From Saccoglossus kowalevskii (taxonomy: Eukaryota > Hemichordata > Enteropneusta > Harrimaniidae), in contig NW_003116448.1 in the NCBI RefSeq assembly GCF_000003605.2, forward strand, positions 592,132 to 635,388: a stretch of DNA of 43,257 nt. Direction: 5' to 3'. Shown in pieces: positions 3,901 through 39,639 of this stretch. Under the pieces are notes generated by a model. That model was not told the origin of the DNA. It did no database searches and worked only from the letters and a program-made list of their open reading frames with translations. Numbering within the stretch: position 1 is the first letter of the stretch; each line of letters begins with the position of its first letter. The position numbers and the translations under genes were made by a program.

Positions 3901-5807
3901 GTACCAGGAAGACCGGAAGATATAGGAGAGTTTTGGCACCAGAAAAGACGAGGATTTGACCGTAGTGCATGGCGTGCAAAATGCCGATGTAAACATACGC
4001 ATGAAGAACATGATCCAAATGGAATGAGGCGATGCAAGGCTGGAGGTAAGTGAGTGAATGAATGAATGAAAGACTGCCCTCATAGTCTAGTTCTGTGTTT
4101 ATGACTAGATCGACCGCGTGAGCTCACATAACGCTTACTTCAATCAAGGATAATTCAGTGTATCTTAGAGCACCTTGATACAATCAATCAAGTTGTCTTA
4201 GAGCACCTTGACACAACCAATCAAGTTGTCTTAGAGCATCTTGACACAACCAATCAAGTGGTCTTAGAGCACCTTGACAAAACCAATCAAGTTGTCTTAG
4301 AGCACCTTGACACAACCAATCAAGTGGTCTTAGAGCACCTTGACACAACCAATCAAGTTGTCTTAGAGCACCTTGACACAACCAATCAAGTGGTCTTAGA
4401 GCACCATGACACAACCAATCAAGTTGTCTTAGAGCACCTTGACACAACCAATCAAGTGGTCTTAGAGCACCTTGACACAACCAATCAAGTGGTCTTAGAG
4501 CACCTTGACACAACCAATCAAGTGGTCTTAGAGCACCTTGACACAACAAATCAAGTGGTCTTAGAGCACCTTGACACAACCAATCAAGTGGTCTTAGAGC
4601 ACCTTGACACAACCAATCAAGTGGTCTTAGAGCACCTTGACACAACCAATCAAGTGGTCTTAGAGCACCTTGACACAACCAATCTAGTGGTCTTAGAGCA
4701 CCTTGACACAACCAATCAAGTGGTCTTAGAGCACCTTGACACAACCAATCAAGTGGTCTTAGAGCACCTCAACACAACCAATCAAGTTGTCTTAGAGCAC
4801 CTTGACACAACCAATCAAATGAACAAATTCTTTATCTTTCACCAATTATCATATTCTCCTACATAATAACGTGAAGCAGTTTCAGTATAAACATCCCCAT
4901 AAATGAATAAAGTACCTTAGTAACTATAAAAGCAACATGTTCATTAGTGTCCCATGCAACATATACAATGCATATAAAAAAATATATTCTTTATTTTTAC
5001 AAAATTTGCATCACACTCAACAGTGGCACATTAACATATCGCTTGCTGTTCAATTTGTCTCTCCATTCAGTCAGGGGATGTGTTAAACTAAATATATACT
5101 AAATGTCACATGACATTTGAAAAATAAATTATTAATTTTCAAAATGGCAATTATAGTTGCCTTTATTTCAAACACTGGAATTTTAAAATATCATTTGAAC
5201 TTCAACTAACAGTTTCACAGAATTGTGTAAATCTGATTGGTTGTTTTATTCTCATTGTAGGGTGTAGATGCAGTGTCTTTGATTCTCCTTTTGTATGTGC
5301 AGCATGTGATAGACATTACGAGGATCATGAAACAGTGTTTGAAACTGAAGATGAACGTCATAGAAATGGAATCCCATATGGTAAGTCAGTAGGAAGTGAC
5401 TGTGAAATACTTTATTTTAGCTGGAATTAATTTTCGCTGAAAAAACTTTTTGGGTGATCGCCACTGCCCTTTAAGTGTTTCAATGGATCACAAAACACCT
5501 AGTATATGCTAGTAGTTGTGTAAAATCATTAAATGAATTATATGAAAGTGAACAAAATATAATAATGTCAGTTACAGATTATAATAGTTGGAAATTACGT
5601 ATACTTGCAGGTGAAGACTATCTACCGTTTGCCGAGATGCCAGAATTACGTAATATGGCTTTGACAGGACACGATGATAATCCTGGTATTTACAGTGCAT
5701 TAGTAGAAGGGGAAGGCAGCATACCTAGAAATCAGCGAGCCATCACCCAGGATACACCGTACCGACCTGCGCCATCTGGATCATCATTCAAACCTTCATA
5801 TGACTGA
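968..5807 (+). CDS. FAM221B: FAM221B-like protein (320 aa, six coding exons)
   Basis: Exons 968-1154, 1275-1418, 2933-3043, 3842-4045, 5261-5380 and 5611-5807 join with consistent phase 1 at every GT-AG intron and give 320 residues. The N-terminus (1-62) is Arg/Ser/Gly-rich. The next exon (GYTMRPIIPAEKKELV) and the following blocks (GWRCPEFKWDC; GRPEDIGEFW; CRCKHTHEEH) follow the FAM221 family pattern and resemble FAM221B more than FAM221A. Cys/His clusters recur at residues 134-143 (CFCGHLLLEH), 195-204 (CRCKHTHEEH) and 217-238 (CRC...CAACDRHYEDH), which suggests metal binding, although the family's biochemical role is not established. Human FAM221B is longer (about 400 aa), mainly because of its N-terminal tail. 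The start at 968 is the first ATG of the open exon. A poly-A signal AATAAA lies at 6079-6084. Confidence 0.9.
1865..2080 (+). repeat. Dispersed repeat, copy in FAM221B intron 2
   Basis: Shares AAGTATGAGGTTTGACCTGGG, CAATCACCTAAAAAA and CATCTTTGTTTC blocks, in order, with 29525-29690. Class unknown. Confidence 0.6.
4157..4820. repeat. 33-bp minisatellite in FAM221B intron 4
   Basis: About 20 tandem copies of a 33-bp unit (core CTTAGAGCACCTTGACACAA) lie between exons 4 and 5. The period is a multiple of three and the unit lacks stops in some frames, so it produces long artificial open frames on both strands. Units carry either GTTGTC or GTGGTC at one position: the two types alternate in the left part and GTGGTC becomes uniform to the right. 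Confidence 0.95.
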
Positions 5808-12997: not shown

Positions 12998-13728
12998 TTA
13001 ATCACTTCTGTCTAATGTTAACATAACAAAAGTCATCACTGCTAAACGCACAGTGTTGAAAGTAATGGATAAACCAAATACAGATGTGCTTCGTTCTTCA
13101 TATGCATAATGTGGTGCTTCTATCATGCTGTGGATGAAGCTAAATCCACCAGCTACCATGGCAACAGTACGCCAGTTACTACCGAGATCAATTCTCCTGT
13201 TAAAAAAAAAAAAGAAGAGGAAACAATGTTTTTTTGTAGTGAGGGTATGTCATCAGGGTTCACCAAGTCCCATTTCCCTGTCATGTAATATAAACCCAAA
13301 ATGTTTGCAATTTATTGATAAATATTTACAGAGATTTCTAATCTCTGAAAAACATCTGTGAAAAGCTTGGTGGTACAAAATTTCAGGATTTTCTACAACT
13401 CACGAACATTTTCTTTTGTCAAACTAGATCATTATACGTAATTCAGTATCACATACACTAGCTTCTATTAGGGGAAGATACTTTGATTTCATCTACATTA
13501 AACTGAGAAAAATAATATACTTACGGTAATGCGTGATCCAATGCACAAGCCAGCCCAAGATCTGATGTCAATCCAACAATAAATGGTGTGCAATTGCTGC
13601 TTATACCCTTGCAATCTTTACCAGTGGCTTTCAACCAAACATTACCAAACATATATGGAGAATACCACGCACAGCCAAGCATTTGGCTACATGCTGTAGC
13701 ACAAGCAATTGAAAGAAACGGCATTCTT
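12998..13728 (-). CDS. DUF1761-like small membrane protein, paralogue A (132 aa)
   Basis: Coding exons are 13724-13525 and 13196-12998 on minus (200 and 199 bp, phase-2 GT-AG intron). The N-terminal segment has the family's diagnostic tract around residues 15-35 (CAWYSPYMFGNVWLKATG), comparable to the WYSPLLFGKxWM pattern of bacterial and eukaryotic DUF1761 proteins. Further hydrophobic stretches at about 45-66, 78-90 and 106-128 predict a four-pass membrane protein. The ATG at 13724 lies four bases after an AG acceptor (13729-13730), so a 5' non-coding exon is expected; a donor-like AAG|GTAAAC at 14676 is a candidate. Paralogue B lies 3.6 kb downstream in the same orientation. Biochemical function is unknown. 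Confidence 0.75.
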
Positions 13729-15229
13729 CTGTCATAAAAAAAGACAGAAGATCAATCAAATATCATAATAATATAGTATAGTCAGGAAACTAATTGAACT
13801 AACTGGTTCTGAGATGCCATTTTGCATGGCAAATTGTAATTTGTAATTCAGGGCTGTAGAGGAGTTGGGGAAAAAAGATATGAATGACCCAGGGGCATGT
13901 TGGAATATTGGCCTCGATTTGAGTTAACCCTTAGACTGAAAAAAAAAAAAGAGTACAGCATGAATAAATATTCATTTTCATTGCTGCAGAAAAATAACAG
14001 ATGTAGAACCCCCCCCCCCCCTTTGACATGCAACAATGTAACTGTTTCTAAATATGCCAGTACTTATGTAATGCATTTTTATTTAGTTAAATCAGGGGCT
14101 TACTATTTGAATACAAACCTAGGAGCTGCATAAATTACAAATCAAATGTGGCATTACATAACTAATTAAAAAACAAAAATAAGATCAAATGTTAGTATTA
14201 AAGAAAAAATACAAAAACGAAAGTTGAGTAAAATGTTAAATTATTGGTATTAAGGGAAAAAAGTGTAAACAAATCACTTTTAGTTTTAGATTATTCTGAA
14301 AACTTTTGTCTGGTTTCCATGGCACTGACAAGGAATTGTTGGACTAATTGGCATATAACTAGCTAATCAAACAACATTGCTCTAACGACACACTTGTATG
14401 TAAATTAGTTTTATACAAATTGATCACAGTCAACAACATTAATTCGAAATTTTCGTTTCGAAATGTTAGTTTGAAGTTAATGCTTTCGACGATCACATCT
14501 ATAATTTACTATATTTCTCTGGGACAAACTTTTCAAACACACACACATAAAGGTGACTAAGACCACTGGACTCTCCCGACACCGACACCACGAGGAGAGG
14601 ATGACATAGAATGGAATGTTCATGGAATCAACATGCATACTTGCAGTTGTTAGGGTCATGAAAAATGCAGTTTACCTTAATAATCAGCAACAGTGCCAGT
14701 ACTTTGCGAAGTCAAGAGCCTTATTGATTTTTGAACGAGCACGCAAATCCCGAGATGCAAGTTTTGTAGCGTCAGGATGAGTTAAAAATGCACTTCCGGT
14801 GTATTGAGGGCGCTTGGTCAGCCGCGGGGGGGGGGGGGGTCGTCATTAATATAACATTTGCATTTTTTGTAACTGGCGACTGTTCTTGCGAATATGGAAC
14901 AACCATGAAAACTATAAAGAGCCTTATATATTTTTTTAACATTAGTAATTTATGGTAAATGTGTATAGGGTCGGCAAGGAGGATTTTCGTAGGCTGTAAT
15001 CAATTGTTTTTATTTTCGTAAGAATGTAATTTAAATAACTAAAAAAAGTAAATTCGTAGACATGGGCAAGCTGTAAAGTGAAATCACCTATTTTATTCGC
15101 CCATAATTTGTACTGCGATCTTATTTTTTCCAAGCATTTTAAAGCATTTTCCCCATTAAATGTTGTAATTCATGCGCAATTTCTAATTTTGATTCGTAAA
15201 CACAAATGGTCAAGTATAGTATCAGGGGT
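13729..15229. other. 5' region of DUF1761-like gene A
   Basis: AT-rich, with a short poly-C tract near 14010 and a 14-bp G run at 14826-14839. A CpG-containing segment at 14690-14840 could hold the promoter of gene A. No coding sequence is recognised. Confidence 0.35.
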
Positions 15230-18883: not shown

Positions 18884-21800
18884 ATGTCTGGCATAGGTAT
18901 GGCGTATATGATTATATCGGTATAGGCTTAATAATACAACAATGAAAAGTACGTTTCTCATAGACTATTTGTTGCCATGATTTATTTCCTTAGCTGACCA
19001 AGAAATGGTCTGCGTTGATGGGCATGTACAGCCCCAGACGGCTGTTGACCAACAACCATATCTCATATTTCATGAAAATGAACAGAAGGTAACGTCTTAA
19101 TTCTTTACTTATTTTCCATTGGTGTAAAACTACATTTTGAGCTAAGTCCCCGTGTCTAATTTATAATACTGACGAGATTGATGGGATGGCATTATGCAAC
19201 GAATATGTAAATTATGTGCGACGGCATTGTATTGTTGTACGATATCTGGTACTAAGCCCAAAAGAATCTTTCAAATCCAGACTTTGTATAAAAAGCAGAA
19301 AAAACTTATTATAACTAATATAATATACATTTTATATAAAACCAAAGAAATTATGCAACAGTAATAATCAGTTCTCTCAAACGTACATTTAAACAAATGG
19401 ATTTTAAAAAGTGAACATGGATGGCGCTGTGGACGTTCAAGTGGGGCGGGCGGTGTTTGATTTTGTAGCGTATTTTGCGTATTTTCATTGTTTTATCGAC
19501 ATAGTATGTATGCTTTGCTTTGGTTGACAATGAGCTAGTCGTATCGCTAGAACTATGTCCACCACTGTTGGGGTTTGTATGTTGTCAAACATTTAGTATA
19601 TTTGGTTTGGTGGAGACAAGGCGCAAGAAAGAGACGGTGTGAATATAATTAATGGTCATGTATCTTTCAAGTCAACTGCAATTAAGCGTACTGCTAGGGG
19701 TGAACCAGTGGTGGTGTTTAATTTTTTGTGAGAAAACATCGAGTAAAAGGTGTACAACATGTTGATTGTGAGGAAAATACATCGACTATTTTATTACATA
19801 TTTTTTAATTTTCAAAAAAAAAAAAAAAATAATTGTTTCAGCAACCTCCTGATAGATACACTCGATAAATTTAATAAGGATGAAATTGGCATGATAATCG
19901 CAGGTGATATGAATGTCAGAACTGGGTTAATTCAAGATTGGATAGAGTAGGATGATTCTAGATATGGCGATGGACTAAATTATGATTTATGTTAAATGGC
20001 AGATGTGAAGACTCAAGTAGCGGAGAGTTCAAGTATGGCCGTAGAGCATAGTATAGGTTAGTTGTTGAGAAACCAGAACAGTGTAACACCACCACCACCA
20101 CCATGTACAACGTATATAAATTTGGTTGTCTCAAAGATTGAATTTGTGCTGTTTTCTCGATTTTAGCCATATTCACCGGCTCATCGACCGGCGTTCCACC
20201 GCAGCTCACACATAACCCAAAGAAATACATGGTACAGTGCTGCGCGTCTTAGCAACATAGAACATTCTGTGACGTAGCTCCACCCCCGGGAATATCACTA
20301 TTTCGACAGGTTACGAAAGTTCAATCTTCGGGGTATGCAAGCTTTATATGTAAAGATGAAAAAACGGCTGTTCACTTTCGTTTTCTTCGCAAAGCAACTA
20401 ACCTTAGCTCTGAGTAATACAATAGTCGAAAGTGTATTAGAACTAGCTATTGTATTTTTTTCGCAAGGAAATAAAACTTAAATTTCTTATATTTTTCAGC
20501 GATGTATATGTGCAATACATGAATAGAATCCCAGCATTTCTCGTCTGTCTACGGAAATTCATATACGAGAGACTGAATGATTTACATGTATAAATGTTTT
20601 TTTTTATAATTGTTTTCTGTTGCCTTGTATGTTTCCCTTTAAGACTAATAAATATTATTATTGTTATTTAGGTTATATCTGCACGTGGTCAAGTAATGCT
20701 GGCGACTGCTGAAGCAACCCCAAAAGACTACTTGTGTATATCTATAATTACATGCTTATTTTGCTGTTGTCCTATTGGAAGTATTGCCATCATTAAATCG
20801 CTTGAAGTAAGTGGCATTCATTTTTTATTACCAGCCTATTCTAATTTTGAGAAAAAAAACAAGAAGAACTGTGAACTGTCTGTGTGTTAAGAAATCTGGG
20901 TGTGAGTGAACTATGGTTTAACCAGTCTAACAATGTTGTCATTGCGGGAAATTGAAGCACTTGACAATGTAATTAGAACAAAGCACAAGTCAACCATGAA
21001 TGTGTGCCAAGTGACTAACATACATTGTATCTTTAAGAAAGCAACTTGGCTGCCAGTCGGCCATCTTAGATCGCATCACTAAACTACTTCAGGTGCACGT
21101 TTTCCACATAAAGTACTAGACACGTGCAACGAATGGACTTATTCGGTCCAGTAGGTTTTGAAATAAAACTCATGACAGACGGAGACCCAAATACAAGTCC
21201 CCGTTTTTTTTTACCTCAATTCGAACGGGAACCAATAAAGCTGTGTGTGAACTACGTTACGTTATTTGTAAACGAGCACAATAGCTCGCTTACAAATAAA
21301 ATACAAAACACACTCCAAGAGTCTTGTTACTGCCCGACATGTGCGTAGAGTAGAGCACAAATCAGTTCATTCTCGGTTGAGTCAAAGGTTCACAACCCAC
21401 GATAACGTCTTCGACAACCAGCACGTGACTTTAAATAATATACGTCCTCCGTTTTGGAGCGCCTCGTCAAACCTCCAGACTGGCGTTGACATGCAAGGAC
21501 GAATATACGGCCAGTTTGTACGGCTACCATAAATCATATAGCCAAATCATGAAGAGAATATATTGCACGTATAACGGCTTAATTATAGTCTTATTAAACC
21601 TTATCTCAGGTACCAGGGGATCGATATATTCGCAACCCTTCGACCAAGCAAAACACACACAGAGATTGGAATCGTGTCAACTTCTCGTCTCAGCGCCACG
21701 TGGGGACTGGCCAAGGCTGGCTCGCCTGCCGAGAACTCCCCAAGACTCTGCCTGCCTCGTTTAGAGCTCGCCAAGACTAAGACTAGCTGTATTTACTTCT

Positions 21801-25629: not shown

Positions 25630-28600
25630 ATGTCTGGCATAGGTATGGCGTATATGATTATATCGGTATAGGCTTAATAATACATCAATGAAAAGTACGT
25701 TTATCATAGACTGTTTGTTGCCATGATTTATTTCCTTAGCTCAACAAGAAATGGTCTGCGTTGATGGGCATGTACAGCCCCAGACGGCTGTTGACCAACA
25801 ACCATATCTCATATTTCATGAAAATGAACAGAAGGTAACGTGTTAATTCTTTACTAATTTTCCATTGGTGTAAAAAGTATAGTTGATAGAGTTATTCAAC
25901 TTCATTTTGAGTTTTTTGCCGGTTGGTTTTGTTGGATCCTTGTTTACCATAGACCCTACAATAGAGGATTAACAGCTATTGCATTCTTTTTTATATTACA
26001 TGGTTTCGAATCATTACGTCTGTTAGCGCAACAGTCTTCCGTGTCTAATATAGAAAATGAACTGAGGAAATACATAAATCAACCATCTTACATGCCAAGG
26101 CACACACCATGTGCTCTTTAAATATCCAGCTGACCACATGCGTAATGTGTTTGAACAGAAAATTGCAACATGCAACTTTGTATTTCATTAGGTAATTGTT
26201 AAAACCACTGTTATCACCATCATGATTTTAAAAATTCCTCAATTTATTATACGTATTTATCATACGCAATATACGGTTTGTAATTGATTGCGTGATTTAA
26301 GGCAATGTATCAATGTGAATAGTATATTCATTTGTGGAGCAATCGAAATTGAGCATTAATCTAAATCCCAAATAACGTGTTTCGGAATGAGAAACATGTG
26401 ACTTGAAGAAACTAAAACATACAAATTTGTTCAAAATCATTGAAGAATCGTGCACATTTTATAGACACCAATGAAAACAATGTTACAAATATCAGCTTAC
26501 AGTGAATCTTTCATAAATCAACATAATACATTATAAGTACAAAATGTTTGAACATGATGTCCCCTGACAAAATGTAATCACGCCCTCAATTTGTAAATTT
26601 TTACAAGTTTATTTTTAAAGTAAAAAAGAATGTAGGATGTCTAGCAATATTGTAAAATTTAGAAATTATTCACGACAACTCACGAATACCAGTATTTGGA
26701 CAGATTATGAATAATCAATCTTCAAGTTATATTAGCATTGTAATTATTGAAAATTTCTTTTTCACTTTCGCAAAGCACTTAAGAAGTATATTTTACCCAG
26801 AGCTGAATAATGCAATAGCCAAAAGTGTCATAGAATTAGCTATTGTTTTTTTTCTGCAGGCGAATAAAATTTAAATTTAAAATTTTTTCAGCAATGTTTC
26901 CTGCCAATACATTAACACAATTCTAGCGTAGTCTCACCTGCCTACGGAACGTTGTATATAAGAGACTGGACGATTTACATGTATGGTCGTTCTTTATAAC
27001 TGTTTTCTATTGAATTGTATGTTTCCTTTTAAACCAATTCAAATGCTAATAAATATTATTATTATTGTTATTATTTAGGTTATGTCTCCACAAAGTCAAG
27101 TTATACGGGTGCCTGATATAGACGCCCCCAACGACTACTTGTGTATATCCATAATAATATGTATATTTTGCTGTTGTCCTATTGGATCTATGGCCATCTT
27201 TAAATCTCTTGACGTAAGTGCCATGCAATTTTAATTACCATCCTATTCACACTTTGAAAAAGAACTGTGTGAACTACTAGAATTTGTAAGTTAAGGAATT
27301 TTGTAAAGGAAGTCGTCCGAGCTATGTTTAAGGAAGCTGTATGTAAACTATGTCTTAAGTATGTTATTTGTAATTAAGGAAGATGTGTGTGAACTACTGT
27401 AAAACATGTCTTTTTAGCTAGCATGTTATTTTAGCTAATGTAAAATAAAGGATATTCTCACAATAAGATTGTTTACACTTTAGCTAAATTAAGATTCAGT
27501 TAATACATGCATTGGGTCAAATTCGCTAAAATGGCATGTAGCTATTTAAACATGTTTTACAGTATCTTAATGAAGCTGTGTGTGAACTATGTCTTAAGAA
27601 AGATGTGTGTGAACTATGTCTTAAGAAAGATGTGTGTGAACTATGTCTTAAGAATGATGTATGAACTATGTCTCAAGGAAGATGTGTGAACTATGTAAAG
27701 GAAGATGTGTGTGTGTATATGTGAACTATGTCTTAAGAAAGATGTGTGTGAAATATGTCTTGAAGAAGATGTGTGTGAACTATGTTATAAGAAAGGTGTG
27801 TGAACTATGTCTTGAAGAAGATGAATGTGTGAACTATGTCTTATGAAAGATGTGTGTGTGAACTATGTGTTGAGAAAGATATGTGTGAACTATGTCTTAA
27901 GAAAGGCGTTTGTGTGAACTATGTCTTAAGAAAGGTGTGTGTGAACTATGTCTTGAGGAAGATGTGTGTGTGTGCGTGTGAACTATGTCTTAAGAAAGAC
28001 ATGTGTGAACTATGTTTTAAGAAAGATGTGTGTGTGTGAACCATGTCTTGTGTGTGTGTCTTGAGGAAGATGTGTGTGTACTATGTCTCGAGAAAGATGC
28101 GTGATAACTACTTGAGGAAGATGTGTGCGAACTATGTGTTAAGAAAACCGTGTGTCAACTATGTGTTATGGAAGCCTTGTGTGAACTATGCGTTAAGGAA
28201 GCCTTGTGTGAACTATGTGTTTAGGAAGCCTTGTGCCAACTGTGTGCTAAGGAAACATTGTGTCAACTATGTGTTAAGGAAGCCTTGTGTCAGCTATGCG
28301 TTAAGGAAGCCTTGTGTCAACTATGTGTTAAGGAAACCTTGTGTCAACTATGTGTTAAGGAAACATTGTGTCAACTATGCGTTAAGGAAGCATTGTGTCA
28401 ACTATGTCTTAAGGAAACCTTGTGTCAACTATGTGTTAAAGAAACTTTGTGTCAACTATGTGTTAAGGAAGCTTGTGTCAACTATGTGTTAAGGAAGCCT
28501 TGTGCCAACTATGTGTTAAGGAAACCTTGTGTCAACTATGTGTTAAGGAAGCCTTGTGCCAACTATGTGTTAAGGAAGCCTTGTGTTAACTATGTGTTAA

Positions 28601-29228
28601 GGAAACCTTGTGTCAACTATGTGTTAAGGAAACCTTGTGTCAACTATGTGTTAAGGAAGCTTGTGTCAACTATGTGTTAAGGAAGCCTTGTGTCAACTAT
28701 GTGTTAAGGAAACCTTGTGTCAACTATGTGTTAAGGAAGCCTTGTGCCAACTATGTGTTAAGGAAGCCTTGTTTGAACTATATGTTGAGGAAGCCTTGTT
28801 TGAACTATATGTTGAGAAAGGCATGCGTGCTATGTGTTGAGGGAGTTATGTTGTAAAAATTGTTCCACTAAAAATCTGGAATTGGAAACGATAAATACAT
28901 TCGTATTCACTGCTACTACCATCAATGACAAAATTTGTACCACGATTTGAGACAGAATCAGAAAGACACAACCGTGCAATCAATTCCAATCATGTGAAGG
29001 TAAACATGTATTACAACAAGTCACAATACTACTTGTACTAAAACGAATAACATTGTTGTTGTTTTTTTCAAATATTTTTACTAGGCTAGGTCAGCTGTGA
29101 GATCCGGGAACATACCACTTGCCAAAGAAAATTCATCAGCTGCAGCACAATTAAATATTGCGGCAGTTTCAATCGTTGTCATCATTATTGCTGTGTACCT
29201 TTTCGTTCACTTCATGGGGTACTACTAA
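25630..29228 (+). CDS. Dispanin/CD225 domain protein 2 (IFITM-like, 128 aa)
   Basis: Exons 25630-25642, 25740-25834, 27079-27213 and 29085-29228, with the same phases as paralogue 1. The first 36 residues differ from paralogue 1 at a single position (Asp6 to Gln), whereas the membrane-domain exons are clearly diverged. CCCPIG is kept in the first membrane segment, as is the loop SGNIPLAKENSSAAAQLN. The second membrane segment is Ile/Val-rich, and the C-terminus is five residues shorter (ends FMGYY). An extra AG four bases inside exon 4 (29088-29089) is a possible alternative acceptor but would break the frame. Intron 3 carries the large 27-bp minisatellite. Confidence 0.9.
27560..28850 (+). 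repeat. 27-bp minisatellite in CD225-2 intron 3
   Basis: About 1.3 kb of tandem units of roughly 27 bp (core CTATGTGTTAAGGAAGCC). The left third is irregular, with GTGTGTG insertions. The right two thirds are regular, with TTGTGTCAA, TTGTGCCAA and ATTGTGTCAA variants. It generates open frames that are not genes. A few isolated units occur from about 27240. Confidence 0.95.
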
Positions 29229-32877: not shown

Positions 32878-35800
32878 TCATCGTTCCATTTCAGCTGTGA
32901 GTTTTGTAACAATGTCGTCTAAAGATAATTTGTCTGCCATGATTTTCACTATCTTGCTTCGAGATCTCGACCCCTGTGAAAGACAATAAATTAAAGCATA
33001 AGTTGTATACATCACGTTTTCACAATTAAAAAGTTATCAAATAGTATAAATTCAGATGGCAAATAATATTAATGAATTATCTAATATAAATCAGATGCTA
33101 AATAATATAAATAAATTGTTAAATATATAAATGAGATGTCAAACAATGTAAATGAATTGTTAAATAATATAAATGAGATGTCAAAAAATATAAATTGTTA
33201 AATAATATAAATGAGAAGAAAAAAACAATATGGGATGTCAAATAATATAAATAAATTGTTAAATAATATAAATGAGATGTCAAATAATATAAATTGTTAA
33301 ATAATATAAATGAGAAGAAAAAAACAATATGAGATGTCAAATAATATAAATGAGATGTCAAACAATATAAATAAATTGTTAAATAATATAAATGAGAAGA
33401 AAAACAATATGAGATATCAAATAATATAAATGAGATGTCAAATAATATAAATAAATTGTTAAATAATATAAATGAGAAGAAAAAAAAATATGAGATATCA
33501 AATAATATAAATGAGATGTCAAATAATATAAATAAGATGCCAAATAATATAAATGAGATGTCAAATAATATAAATAAATTGTTAAATAATATAAATGAGA
33601 TGTCAAATAATATAAATGCGATGTCAGAAAAGCAGGCGATACAATCATCATACTGCTTCTGCTGATATTTGTGGTATTCTGGTGATAATCTCATATTAGT
33701 TTGTCTATAATGTTAAAAAAGAAGTAAAGCCAAACAAAATAATGCTGCCTAAAGAAAGACCTCCACAAATGTAGGAGAATGCAATTTAAATTTTTTTTAT
33801 ATATCACTTTTCATACTCTAGATATTCGACTTTTCATCAGTTTTATGTAGTCCACCATCTTGATTCTCCAGCAAAGGATTGCAGGTAAAGTGTGACATAA
33901 CATCCTTTGTTGTGAAAAATGGAGAAAATGTAATTATCTATAACGTGAGAAATACTGATGCAATTTTTTTTCAAATTTTCAGTGTGCATACTACACATGT
34001 ATATAATTATAGTAATAGAAATTAGAATGTTACAAATACACATAAAGTGAAAATATTGCTAAAAATCATTATTTTAATCGTTAAAAGTAGAATGACACTT
34101 TTTTGTCCCCTTTTTGTGGTCAATATGTGATATATCACTAATATAACCTACTCACATTGGTAAATTGTATACAATATAAGAAAATTTGAGCATTTGGTAG
34201 AAAAACTTTCAGCCAATTTGAAGTTCAACTTTTAAAGTTATAGATGAAATCATTTTCTCAATTTCTCAACAGAGGTTATGATGTCATACTTTACCCATAA
34301 TCCCTTGCTGAAGAATCAAGATGGTGGACTACATAAATTAATGAAAAGTTAAATATCTAGAGAATGAAAAGTGATATGAAAAAGCTGTAAATTTCATGCT
34401 CTTACATTTGCCGAGCTCTTTCATCTGGGAGTGTTATGTTGTTAAACTTGACTTTTCCTTTAATGATAATCTTACCCTATCTAATGAAACATCACTTTTT
34501 CTTACATTCAACACTAATGCTAGATATTTCACCAAAGTAGTGTTAGCTTCCCCATCCAAAGGAGGAGCTGCAATCTGTACACCAACACTTTCACTTGAAA
34601 TATCTGAATATTTAGAAAAATTACAAAAATATAAATATAAAATGAGCTTCAGTCACATCATACTCAAAAGTTGTGGTTTCCATATACATTTTTGTATTAG
34701 TATACCATATTTGCTCTATTAGAAGCACATCTCCAAGAGAAGAACACCTAACCAATTTATTGTAGTTATTGTATGCTGGATCATTAGAATACAAGATACC
34801 CATAATTTGACAACCAACAGCTAGCAGGATGCTAGGATGAAGTTGTTTACGCTTGTATGTGCACACAAGAACAGTAATTAGTTGGTATAACCAGTCACTC
34901 ATCTCCCAAAGGTATGAAAATAGCATGGTTTGCCACTAGTTATTAAATTTGCACATATTTAACAGAAAACAATTTTTGGATAACTTTGTCACAGTTGCTG
35001 CTCCATGCATGCCATATTGTGTCAGACATTGAATAACTCTATTGGTTTCAATTGGAATTTTTCAAAATTTTTACAAAATAAACTAAAATGTTTTGTGAAG
35101 AGGACATTAAGACGTGTTATTTATATTTTGTTTTTGTTTTTGTTTATAGCACACTATATCTGTCTCAATTTCTATCGCTTGAGTAAACTTTTAAAGGGCT
35201 GTGGTGGTCGTGCTGCACTTGTTTGAATTTCATGTAACAAATAATTATTTTACATGTGCTGTATCGAACAGGATGCGATGCAATGACCACCATCCTTTAA
35301 CAATGGCAATAGCATAACTACCGTATGTGGACATGTCTGAGAGGAAGAAAAATGATTTTATACCTGTTATTGAATTGTGTTTAGCACCTGGTTTAGCTTG
35401 TATGATAATGCTATGAGAGCCGTCTTTATTGAGAACTACTGGACCAGTTGTAGTTGTTGCTTTGCTTTCACAGCTAGCTTCCCCCTGCAGAAGAAACTAT
35501 AGTGTTAATGATGCAATACTTGATTGAGTGTTCTTTGCTAAATTCATGGTATTGACTACGTTGTCTGTGGAAACCAAAATATATCAGTGTCCATAAACCG
35601 CAGTGGTTTTTGGTAGTGTTGATTATGGCCAAATTATATCTTTAAGTGAGATGCTTTCAACATCATGTATGAGCAAAGTTCACAAGAAATTAAATAAATT
35701 ATTAGAAAAACAGTGGGAAAATGATATCCATAATGACAATAGAAAGCAAATTGGTGTCTCTAAGTTTTAAGATGAAAGTTACCTTGCCGATAACACTAAT

Positions 35801-36969
35801 GTTGAGCTACATGTGACCAAAACTAGATTCAGAGTTAGTGATCATTGTTTTAAAATTGAAACTGACAGACATAAACAGATTGCAGTTAATTCTACAACAT
35901 GTGATCAATGTATACAGACGAAGTTGAAGATGAAAACCATTTTGTTATCAATACTGCATCCATTTAACAAAACAGAAATGCATATAATTTTAGAACCAGT
36001 ATTGAGAGTGACAAATTTATTTCCATTATGAGCAACAAACATGTCACTTCTCATAGCTCAGTTCATTAATAATAATAACTTCATTGCCTCCATGTAAAAA
36101 GATTTACATAGGATAAGTACAGCAAACAAGATATATGTAAAAATATTGTACAAAAAAAAGAAAAACAAGAACATAACTAGTATTTAAATGTTAAATAAAT
36201 CTTTTTGCTGTGTAAATATAATTGGCAAGTTCTATAATTATGCCAGGATCTTTGCTTGAGAGTATAAATGTGAACTGTATATTTCATTGTTGGATGAAAG
36301 TAGTGTCATAATTTTGTGGATGAAGTTTTCCCTGTGTGTGTTATAATTTGGGCAATTCAATAGAAAAATGTTTTGCATCTTCAATTGAATTTGTGTCACA
36401 GTTATTGCATATTCTTTTGATTATAGGTTTCTTAGGAAATGAATATCTGCCTTCATTAATACCAGACAGTGACTGTGTCTTGAATGAGCTGGGAGCATTA
36501 ATAGTGTTTTGTTGTTGATTTTTTATCTTCTTTATTTGTTTTGTGATATATGATCATTTTTATCTTCTCCGGGAGATATTATAAGTTAATAAATACTATT
36601 ATTATGTGCGCTCTGGGTGTGCGCTTCTAGAATAATAATTCCTGGCTGTGCATTTAATTTTTTTTAATTATAATTAATTTATGTTCAGAAAATTTACACT
36701 GGTTTTCACACAATAATATAGTTTTCTTGTCTCGCTGGATATACAATGGTACATCTCTTTAACGACTGGGTGGCAAATTAGTGACCGATTTCTGATGGAC
36801 TTCCAACCTGACCTTGGCTGACCCATGGAGCTAGCTCCATGGCTGACCTATAATGTTTGTATTTTACCTTATTCGCCTTTACCTGTCCTTTCTTTTTTGG
36901 CATTCTATCAGATGTATGAATACATTTTGATGTCTGTAGAAATATTAGTGGTCTAGTGAACTTTATCAT
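32878..36969 (-). CDS. C15orf40: UPF0235/DUF167 protein, C15orf40 orthologue (148 aa)
   Basis: Minus-strand exons 36969-36868, 35484-35364, 34603-34476 and 32973-32878 join in frame (phases 0, 1, 0). The N-terminus ([20 protein letters not shown]) is basic and hydroxyl-rich, suggesting a mitochondrial presequence, and is followed by MPKKKG, which also starts the human short form. The DUF167 core includes [46 protein letters not shown] and [13 protein letters not shown], matching the family in order. Human proteins are of similar length. Two in-phase donors exist in exon 1 (after GQ and after VKANK), so five residues may be optional. It is head to head with NR2C2AP. The biochemical role of the family is unsettled. 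Confidence 0.92.
33058..33627. repeat. 21-bp minisatellite in C15orf40 intron 3
   Basis: Interleaved 21-bp units AATAATATAAATGAGATGTC(A) and AATAATATAAATAAATTGTT(A), with several longer variants carrying a GAAGAAAAAA insert. It creates Asn/Ile-rich artificial open frames. Confidence 0.9.
33766..34410. mobile_element. Non-autonomous element with ~150-bp terminal inverted repeats
   Basis: The left arm 33766-33915 and right arm 34265-34410 are inverted repeats of each other. Shared blocks include ATATCACTTTTCAT, CTCTAGATATT, TATGTAGTCCACCATCTTGA and GACAT. The outer ends begin CAAATGTA. No clear target duplication or coding frame was found. It lies about 65 bp from exon 3 of the C15orf40 orthologue. 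Confidence 0.75.
35580..36060 (+). mobile_element. LINE 3' ORF remnant (plus)
   Basis: Frames on plus read like the C-terminal part of a CR1/jockey-type LINE ORF2: [16 protein letters not shown], then [26 protein letters not shown] and, after a frameshift, [10 protein letters not shown]. This is the Cys-His segment typical of those ORFs. It is broken by stops and lies in C15orf40 intron 1. Confidence 0.65.
36061..36530 (-). mobile_element. LINE 3' ORF remnant (minus)
   Basis: On minus: [20 protein letters not shown] followed by [12 protein letters not shown], then after a frameshift [20 protein letters not shown]. It is the same LINE C-terminal segment as the neighbouring plus-strand remnant, but inverted. 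Broken by stops and shifts; located in C15orf40 intron 1. Confidence 0.65.
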
Positions 36970-37076: not shown

Positions 37077-39618
37077 ATGGCAGCCTCCATTGGAAAACAT
37101 GCGTCCAAAATAAAGTGAGTATTTTTCAGTAAACTAAAGTCGTAACGGTAACAGGAGACTGTCGGTACCTAAAATACCAGTGCCTACCCAACAATTAGAC
37201 TGCTGTCAGTTCATCTACCAGTATCATGAATGTAGAATTTTAAAAAGCGACCTCAAATAACAGAAGTTTTTTTTTTCTACCTTTATTAAATAGTAACATG
37301 TATGAATGTGATACAAATGATAAAGAATATGTATGTATACGTCACTGAATGACTGATGAATAGTATGAAACAACGCTGGTTTAGATTGTGATAAAAGAAA
37401 AATTTCTTACTATGCATGATAATCTCTAAAACATGGAATTGAATTTGTACCTGTAATTATTTTGTAATCAAATGCGCCAGTCAATATAAACTATGAGCTT
37501 TCACCCCCCCTACAACAACAACAACCAACCACCCTAATTTGGTATGCGGGGACAAGAACAATATTTCGAGGTGCTAAATATATTATGCCCCACCCTCTAG
37601 GGTAAATAAAAATCTTATCCCAATCCAGCATATTCCTGCACTATTATTCCCTAGTTTTTTTTCCCATGTGAAATATTTCATGAGAAAATAGCAAACTCCT
37701 GAGTGCCATAATTGCCCCCACGTAACCCGAGAGGGGGGGTCAGGGTTTCCATGTCCACGACATTCAATTTCAGTGTTTAATAAAATTTGGCCTGGCCTGA
37801 AAAGAGACTTGCTTATAAATATTTTCTGTTACTAAAAACATGTTTTTTTTTTCATAGAGTGAGCTCTACTTTGAATCGTGATGTAAAACAATTTGGTAAA
37901 AAGTATATGTTTGATGATGATGAGGAAACGTGTTGGAATTCAGACCAGGTAAAAAAATGACAGTTGAATTAGAGAATAACAGCTAAAAATGAGCAAATAT
38001 TTGAATTCAGTGATTGTATTTCTGTCACATGTTTTAGTACTTTTGTTTCCAATGTGAACAAAAAAAAATTGTTCAATGTTGGTGATGGTGATGGTGATGT
38101 ACCGGTAGTTTACCATATAAAATAATATTTCAAACTTTGGAACAAGTGCAGATAAAATTTGGAATGGATACAGAATAATAAATTCCAATGTTTTCTGTTC
38201 TAGATATATAATAATGATGAATATAAAAGGTGTAAGGAAAGTTTCAAAATTGGGGGCACTGTTTGATCCGATTGGAACATATAATTTTTTCTTTTTACAG
38301 TATAATGAATGAAAAAACCTATGAACATAAAGTATTTACATCTCCAGTGCCGTGCCTTGAGTACATTATATTTTAAAATTTGTATGCATACCAGAATGAT
38401 TTTGTGAAATGAAAACTTAATTTTGTATGTTTTCAGTACTAAAACTATTGAGCAATATGAAATATGTGAGTCTACGGTCTCCATGAATTTTGTGATTGAT
38501 TGTTGTATGATTTGATTAAAAAGAAAATCTTAGGTTACCTCTAACAGTTTATTTGATACTGATCAAAAACGTATTAAATAAACTTTAGTACAGTTGTTTT
38601 TTGATGAATTTTTCTAAAAATTTATGATTAACATATGTTTTTTTATGCAATATCATAAACGTATGAGCTTTCAATAATGGAAATGCGGTACCAGTTTACT
38701 TGTAACAAAGATTGAAGCTGAACTTGAAATAAAAACAACAAATTATCTTTTCTTTCATAATAGGGCTCACCGCAGTGGGTAGTCATGGAATTTCCCCATC
38801 AAATCAGACTCCAAGAGCTGATGATACAATTTCAAGGAGGATTTGTGGGAAAAGAATGTTGGATAGAAGGTTGCCATGATGATGAAACAATGACAAAAAT
38901 TCTAGATTTTTATCCAGAAGATGTGAATTCATTGCAAATATCCTTTCTTTTGTAGATGGTTAGTTAGTCAGACATTTTATTGTTGTTTGCAGCTTTCATT
39001 GATGTTCATACTATAGACAAATTTTTGTTGCATAAACTTTTATTTTCTTCGCTATATATAAAATATGACCTTCACTGTGTCCTTCATTGTTGTAAATGAC
39101 CTTTGATTGTTAGCTTTTCATTGACACAAATGACCTTTCATTAAGGTAGGCAACTGCTCAAATAGATGAACATTTATCGTTATAGAAAAAAACCAATGGT
39201 TACATACATTATAATATTATGACAACATTGACACAGTTAACCTTTCATTGACATGGACGACCTTTCATTGATATGGACAGCATTCATTGACATAGATGAC
39301 AGATGACCTTCATTGATATGGGTGACCATCCATTGAACAGGTAACCTTCAATGATAAAGATGTTTCATTAACAATTCATTTAAAATGTTATAAATATAAA
39401 TGACCACCAAATCATTCATGCAAAAAATGGCATTTGGAAGTTATAACAAACTGATTCATACACACTACTATTCTCCTTAACTCACAGTTTTCCACTCTTT
39501 TCATTTACCCACAGATCAGCTGTTTACAAAAGTCAAAATTATATTTAACAGCAGTACAGATTTTTATGGAAGAATCACTATTTATAAATTGGACTTAATT
39601 GGAACTCAAATTACTTGA
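37077..39618 (+). CDS. NR2C2AP: Nuclear receptor 2C2-associated protein orthologue (141 aa)
   Basis: Exons 37077-37114, 37858-37948, 38764-38937 and 39496-39618 join in frame. The protein matches NR2C2AP along its length: VSSTLNRDVKQFGKKYMFDD with DEETCWNSDQ, QWVVMEFPHQIRLQELMIQF, FYPEDVNSLQ, and STDFYGRITIYKLDLIG. Human NR2C2AP is 139 aa and in mammals binds the orphan receptor TR4/NR2C2 and represses its activity; the fold is discoidin/F5-8C-like. Whether that partner is kept here is unknown. The third intron is AT-AC (U12 type); if unspliced, the frame ends five codons later. A poly-A signal AATAAA lies at 39633-39638. Confidence 0.93.
38938..39495 (+). other. U12-type AT-AC intron of NR2C2AP (558 bp)
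   Basis: Donor ATATCCTTT (38938-38946) is a full match to the U12 5' splice site. TCCTTAAC (39474-39481) matches the U12 branch site, 14-15 bases before the terminal TTCCAC (ends 39495). Removing it joins SLQ to SFHLPTDQL in phase 0, matching the family's SLQTFPIP...DRL pattern. No GT-AG alternative keeps the frame. Confidence 0.88.
39060..39390 (+). repeat. Degenerate ~20-bp repeat inside the U12 intron
   Basis: About ten imperfect copies of ACCTTTCATTGACATGGATG-like units, with spacing varying from 18 to 30 bp, occupy the middle of the AT-AC intron. Confidence 0.65.
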
Positions 39619-39639
39619 GTTTTTTAAAACTGAATAAAA

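Follow-up and report, generated by a model that had tools for sequence, protein, structure and literature searches.

A probable U12-type AT-AC intron in an NR2C2AP-like gene of Saccoglossus kowalevskii

The last of the three introns in a gene that we take to be NR2C2AP-like is predicted to be a minor-class spliceosomal intron, U12-type and of the A subtype with AT-AC termini, a reading to which we give a probability of roughly 95%. The window analyzed was the whole stretch of 43,257 nucleotides of Saccoglossus kowalevskii DNA. Strong support for a U12-type AT-AC intron comes from the donor, the branch site, the distance between branch site and acceptor, the acceptor itself, the reading frame and the protein alignments across the junction. 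By established knowledge the intron is a member of the A-type (AT-AN) group of U12-type introns, and it is one more example of a well-known intron class.

Results

An NR2C2AP-like gene with four coding exons

Exon coordinates and translation define, within the window, a gene on the + strand with four coding exons and a 141-residue product. The coding part of exon 1 (37077..37114, + strand, as for all features of this gene) runs from an ATG, 5′ of which the translation has an in-frame stop, to the donor GTGAGT, which matches GTAAGT at five of six positions. Introns 1 (37115..37857) and 2 (37949..38763) are both GT-AG introns of the major (U2) type with TAG acceptors, the donor of the second being GTAAAA, with four of six matches to GTAAGT. 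Between them lies exon 2 (37858..37948), which encodes VSSTLNRDVKQFGKKYMFDDDEETCWNSDQ, and intron 2 is followed by exon 3 (38764..38937), which ends in ...DFYPEDVNSLQ; both exons were placed by translation and by alignment to the human protein. The coding part of exon 4 (39496..39618) contributes 40 residues and then a TGA, and AATAAA at 39633..39638 is a candidate polyadenylation signal.

We presume the gene to be NR2C2AP-like from comparison with a provisional human NR2C2AP sequence, not drawn from a database record. Against this provisional sequence, 67 of 128 aligned positions are identical and 94 are similar. The single gap faces residue ten of exon 4, and the intron 3 junction is free of gaps. 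The lengths are also similar, at 141 residues here and 139 in human NR2C2AP (TRA16). Pfam matches of the product point to the beta-sandwich families F5/8 type C, SUN and APC10. SUN (Sad1_UNC) alone among these lies above its curated cut-off, and there is no NR2C2AP-specific model among the matches. A PDB search with the product gave 13 matches, all of them weak, led by an HSP90 chain (E 0.15) and APC10 (E 0.6). Judging from its sequence, the 40-residue C-terminal segment belongs to a galactose-binding-like domain (F5/8 type C, SUN, APC10-like). Relatives were sought in viral_contigs (15 pattern-matching stretches) and genome_contigs (14 pattern-matching stretches); none of these stretches encodes one, and no orthologous intron came to light there, as expected of virus and prokaryote collections. 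The preliminary description called the product a small nuclear regulator; for the gene described here, such a role would derive from the human name and from a one-line statement in a human-cell paper, PMC9181716, that human NR2C2AP represses the nuclear receptor NR2C2/TR4.

Splice signals of the third intron

Intron 3 is 558 nt long with 31% G+C, and it is in phase 0 because 38 + 91 + 174 = 303 coding bases precede it. The preliminary description had placed an AT-AC U12-type intron at 38938..39495, and these coordinates are exact, with ATATCCTTTCTTTTG as the first bases and CTCCTTAACTCACAGTTTTCCAC as the last. Introns of this type are expected to have a donor near ATATCCTTT, a branch site near TTCCTTRAC, a YAC acceptor and no distinct polypyrimidine tract. 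Counting matches by position against U12 consensus strings, and not by a published PWM or SVM (SpliceRack, intronIC), the 5′ splice site ATATCCTTT (38938..38946) agrees with the AT-AC minor consensus ATATCCTTT at 9 of 9 positions and the branch site CTCCTTAAC (39473..39481) with TTCCTTAAC at 8 of 9. By comparison, the same donor matches GTAAGT at only two of six positions, versus five and four for the donors of introns 1 and 2. The branch site is close to TTCCTTRAC and falls in the last 40 nt of the intron, and its likely branch A is 39480. The 3′ splice site TTTTCCAC (39488..39495) is of the YAC type, and its last base lies 15 nt past the branch A. The earlier statement that donor, branch site and AC acceptor fit the minor spliceosome is thus borne out by all three elements.

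The branch-to-acceptor distance of 15 nt is slightly above the optimum of 11-13 nt given in a passage of PMC6717393. An earlier CAG (39485-39487) sits between the branch site and the AC acceptor. The stretch before the acceptor is 72% pyrimidine in intron 3, against 72% and 78% in introns 1 and 2, so this measure does not tell the introns apart. The interior of intron 3 contains a degenerate, roughly 20-nt tandem repeat at window positions 39119-39326, one copy of which is CATTGACATGGACGACCTTT. An Rfam scan of the window at gathering thresholds gave no matches.

The junction and its alternatives

Joining 38937/39496 yields ...DFYPEDVNSLQ/SFHLPTDQLFTKVKIIFNSSTDFYGRITIYKLDLIGTQIT followed by the stop, and at the junction NSLQ/SFHLP aligns without a gap to NSLQTFPIP of the provisional human sequence. 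An extra exon within 38938-39495 was considered and set aside; this gap-free alignment at the junction leaves no need for one. Retention of intron 3 gives ...NSLQ-ISFLL-stop (Ile-Ser-Phe-Leu-Leu), so that the reading frame closes after five codons and the 40 residues of exon 4 are lost; translation confirms both of these figures from the preliminary description.

We enumerated GT-AG, GC-AG, AT-AC, AT-AG and GT-AC joins with donors in 38910-38979 and acceptors in 39440-39559 that remain open to the stop at 39618. This gave 44 stop-free in-frame joins, three of which are GT-AG (38923-39519, 38952-39551 and 38952-39554). The assertion that none of the GT-AG options tried preserves the frame was therefore too strong, although each of the three deletes residues that align to the human protein: 38923-39519, the least damaging, removes 13 residues that align to the provisional human sequence, and the other two lose the beginning of exon 4. 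Five of the 44 joins (the favored one, two of the three GT-AG joins, one AT-AG and one other AT-AC) were scored with Pfam, together with the retained form. Among these six forms, only the join 38938-39495 passed the SUN-domain cut-off of 22, with 23.2 bits; one alternative join scored 14.6 bits, and for the three other joins and the retained form the domain was unlisted. Pointing the other way, the F5_F8_type_C family scored the join 38940-39485 slightly higher, at 25.2 bits versus 24.5 for 38938-39495. That the favored join restores the reading frame of a conserved protein is supported by the translation, by the gap-free junction with the provisional human NR2C2AP sequence and by the SUN score.

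An ordinary GT-AG intron would run from donor 38923 (GAT/GTGAAT) to acceptor 39519 (CAGATCAG/CTG) and give a protein 13 residues shorter. It keeps the frame and is free of stops, but we regard it as very improbable: the segment it removes, VNSLQSFHLPTDQ, aligns to the provisional human sequence, the SUN-domain match is no longer listed by Pfam, the CAGs that end earlier, at 39487 and at 39514, are both passed over, and the perfect U12 donor is left unexplained. Those same two CAGs could instead be paired with the donor at 38938, giving an AT-AG intron as a minor or mis-spliced form. The CAG at 39487 is the nearest after the branch site, and AT-AG minor introns exist according to a passage of PMC8280824. 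However, 39487 is only 7 nt from the branch A, and use of either CAG shifts the frame and swaps the conserved residues of the last exon for unrelated ones, so there is very little chance that this is how the intron is spliced.

Terminal dinucleotides alone do not settle the class of an intron, as noted in a passage of PMC6717393, and major-class AT-AC or related introns exist, 85 of them being mentioned in part of PMC8280824. Removal of intron 3 by the major (U2) spliceosome nonetheless seems highly unlikely, as its donor agrees with the U12 consensus at 9 of 9 positions versus 2 of 6 for the U2 consensus, and its branch site agrees with the U12 consensus at 8 of 9 positions and lies at a suitable distance. 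The evidence argues instead for a U12-type AT-AC intron at 38938..39495.

Frequency of the motifs in the window

Each strand of the window has a single occurrence of the pattern A or G followed by TATCCTTT. Of 400 dinucleotide shuffles, 13 contained, on either strand, a strict ATATCCTTT donor and, no more than 1500 nt downstream of it, a CCTTRAC+AC module. Taken by themselves, the motifs are therefore only moderately unlikely; the real window has one pair of strict donor and branch+AC. When position is included, requiring the donor within 40 nt and, within 60 nt and in the right phase, a TCCTTRAC with an AC or AG suitably spaced after it, rates from 300 shuffles give a chance of about 1.7e-7 for the donor and the branch/acceptor module at the required place, an estimate that assumes independence and uses spans picked after the site was seen.

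The second ATATCCTTT, on the - strand at 27455-27447, is followed about 160 nt on by CCTTAAC at 27296-27290, and we judged this pair to be a decoy. Its branch-like CCTTAAC lies in an apparent degraded unit of a neighboring 27-nt tandem repeat, no - strand coding exon was seen around it, and it adjoins a CD225-like exon on the + strand. The decoy shows that a donor/branch pair is not by itself proof of an intron.

Other features of the window

The NR2C2AP-like gene stands head to head with a gene on the - strand at 34434-36969 that we provisionally take to be C15orf40/UPF0235-like, with a DUF167 match at 34434-34652. The start codon of this neighbor is about 107 bases from that of the NR2C2AP-like gene, with the first exon placed by eye, and it is possible that the two genes share a promoter. 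Two CD225-like exons on the + strand (20672-20890 and 27079-27234) are similar in sequence by eye, which suggests a duplication. A large array of 27-nt repeats with + strand open frames occupies 27565-28820, and a 33-nt tandem repeat of 19.9 copies, with an open frame on each strand, lies at 4163-4818 between two FAM221-like exons. An open frame on the + strand at 11475-11837 matches HTH_23, a helix-turn-helix of homeodomain-like type, at 25.0 bits (cut-off 24.6) and is possibly a paired-type or transposase fragment. On the - strand, a DUF1761-like exon at 13521-13751 scores 30.9 bits, just below the curated cut-off of 31.

Discussion

Given that its last intron runs from AT to AC with minor-class signals, the gene probably needs the minor spliceosome, and established knowledge of such introns indicates that the full protein probably cannot be made without it. 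By the pathway known from other species, U11 and then U6atac would pair with AUAUCCUU, and U12 would pair with CUCCUUAAC, bulging an A that is probably 39480. We propose that the AC at 39494-39495 would be chosen because it is a suitable acceptor and its distance is workable. Splicing there would then restore the last 40 residues of the galactose-binding-like domain; were intron 3 left in place, the protein would stop five codons on.

The intron shares with known U12-type AT-AC introns the donor ATATCCTTT, the CCTTAAC branch site, the short distance from branch to acceptor and the CCAC acceptor, and, as is familiar for such introns, it is a single one beside two U2-type introns. Compared with minor introns generally, the only difference found is that it is in phase 0, which is less common among them at about 22% on average, according to a passage of PMC10639083. 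A minor intron in an animal gene is unsurprising, since the same paper describes relative enrichment of minor introns in some protostome groups, including molluscs. The AT-AC termini and U12 donor are also shared with the A-type (AT-AN) minor introns that depend on CENATAC; a passage of PMC8280824 reports that CENATAC depletion affected 92% of A-type introns, a result from human cells.

A more far-reaching reading is that the AT-AC intron is an ancient feature of NR2C2AP, an inefficient A-type intron kept across animals so that slow or retained splicing sets the amount of full-length protein. We consider this unlikely, at around one chance in ten by our reckoning; if it were true, the retained form would lack the last 40 residues.

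Our literature search covered open-access papers, with supplementary gene lists and minor-intron databases outside its scope, and found none that combines NR2C2AP with 'minor spliceosome' or 'minor intron'. NR2C2AP together with U12 and intron retrieved only PMC6135864, which in the part retrieved concerns rat bilirubin, and a match for TRA16 with minor spliceosome, PMC11384962, refers in the matching part to a similarly named stem-cell marker and is irrelevant here. Neither the intron database paper PMC7367187 nor the CENATAC paper PMC8280824 mentions NR2C2AP in its main text. Since supplementary lists and databases lay outside the search, the gene may well be present in published minor-intron lists.

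The intron described here adds one candidate to the genes with minor introns. Its exact junction matters for annotation, because gene finders that allow only GT-AG introns would miss the 40 C-terminal residues that this gene encodes or put them in the wrong place.
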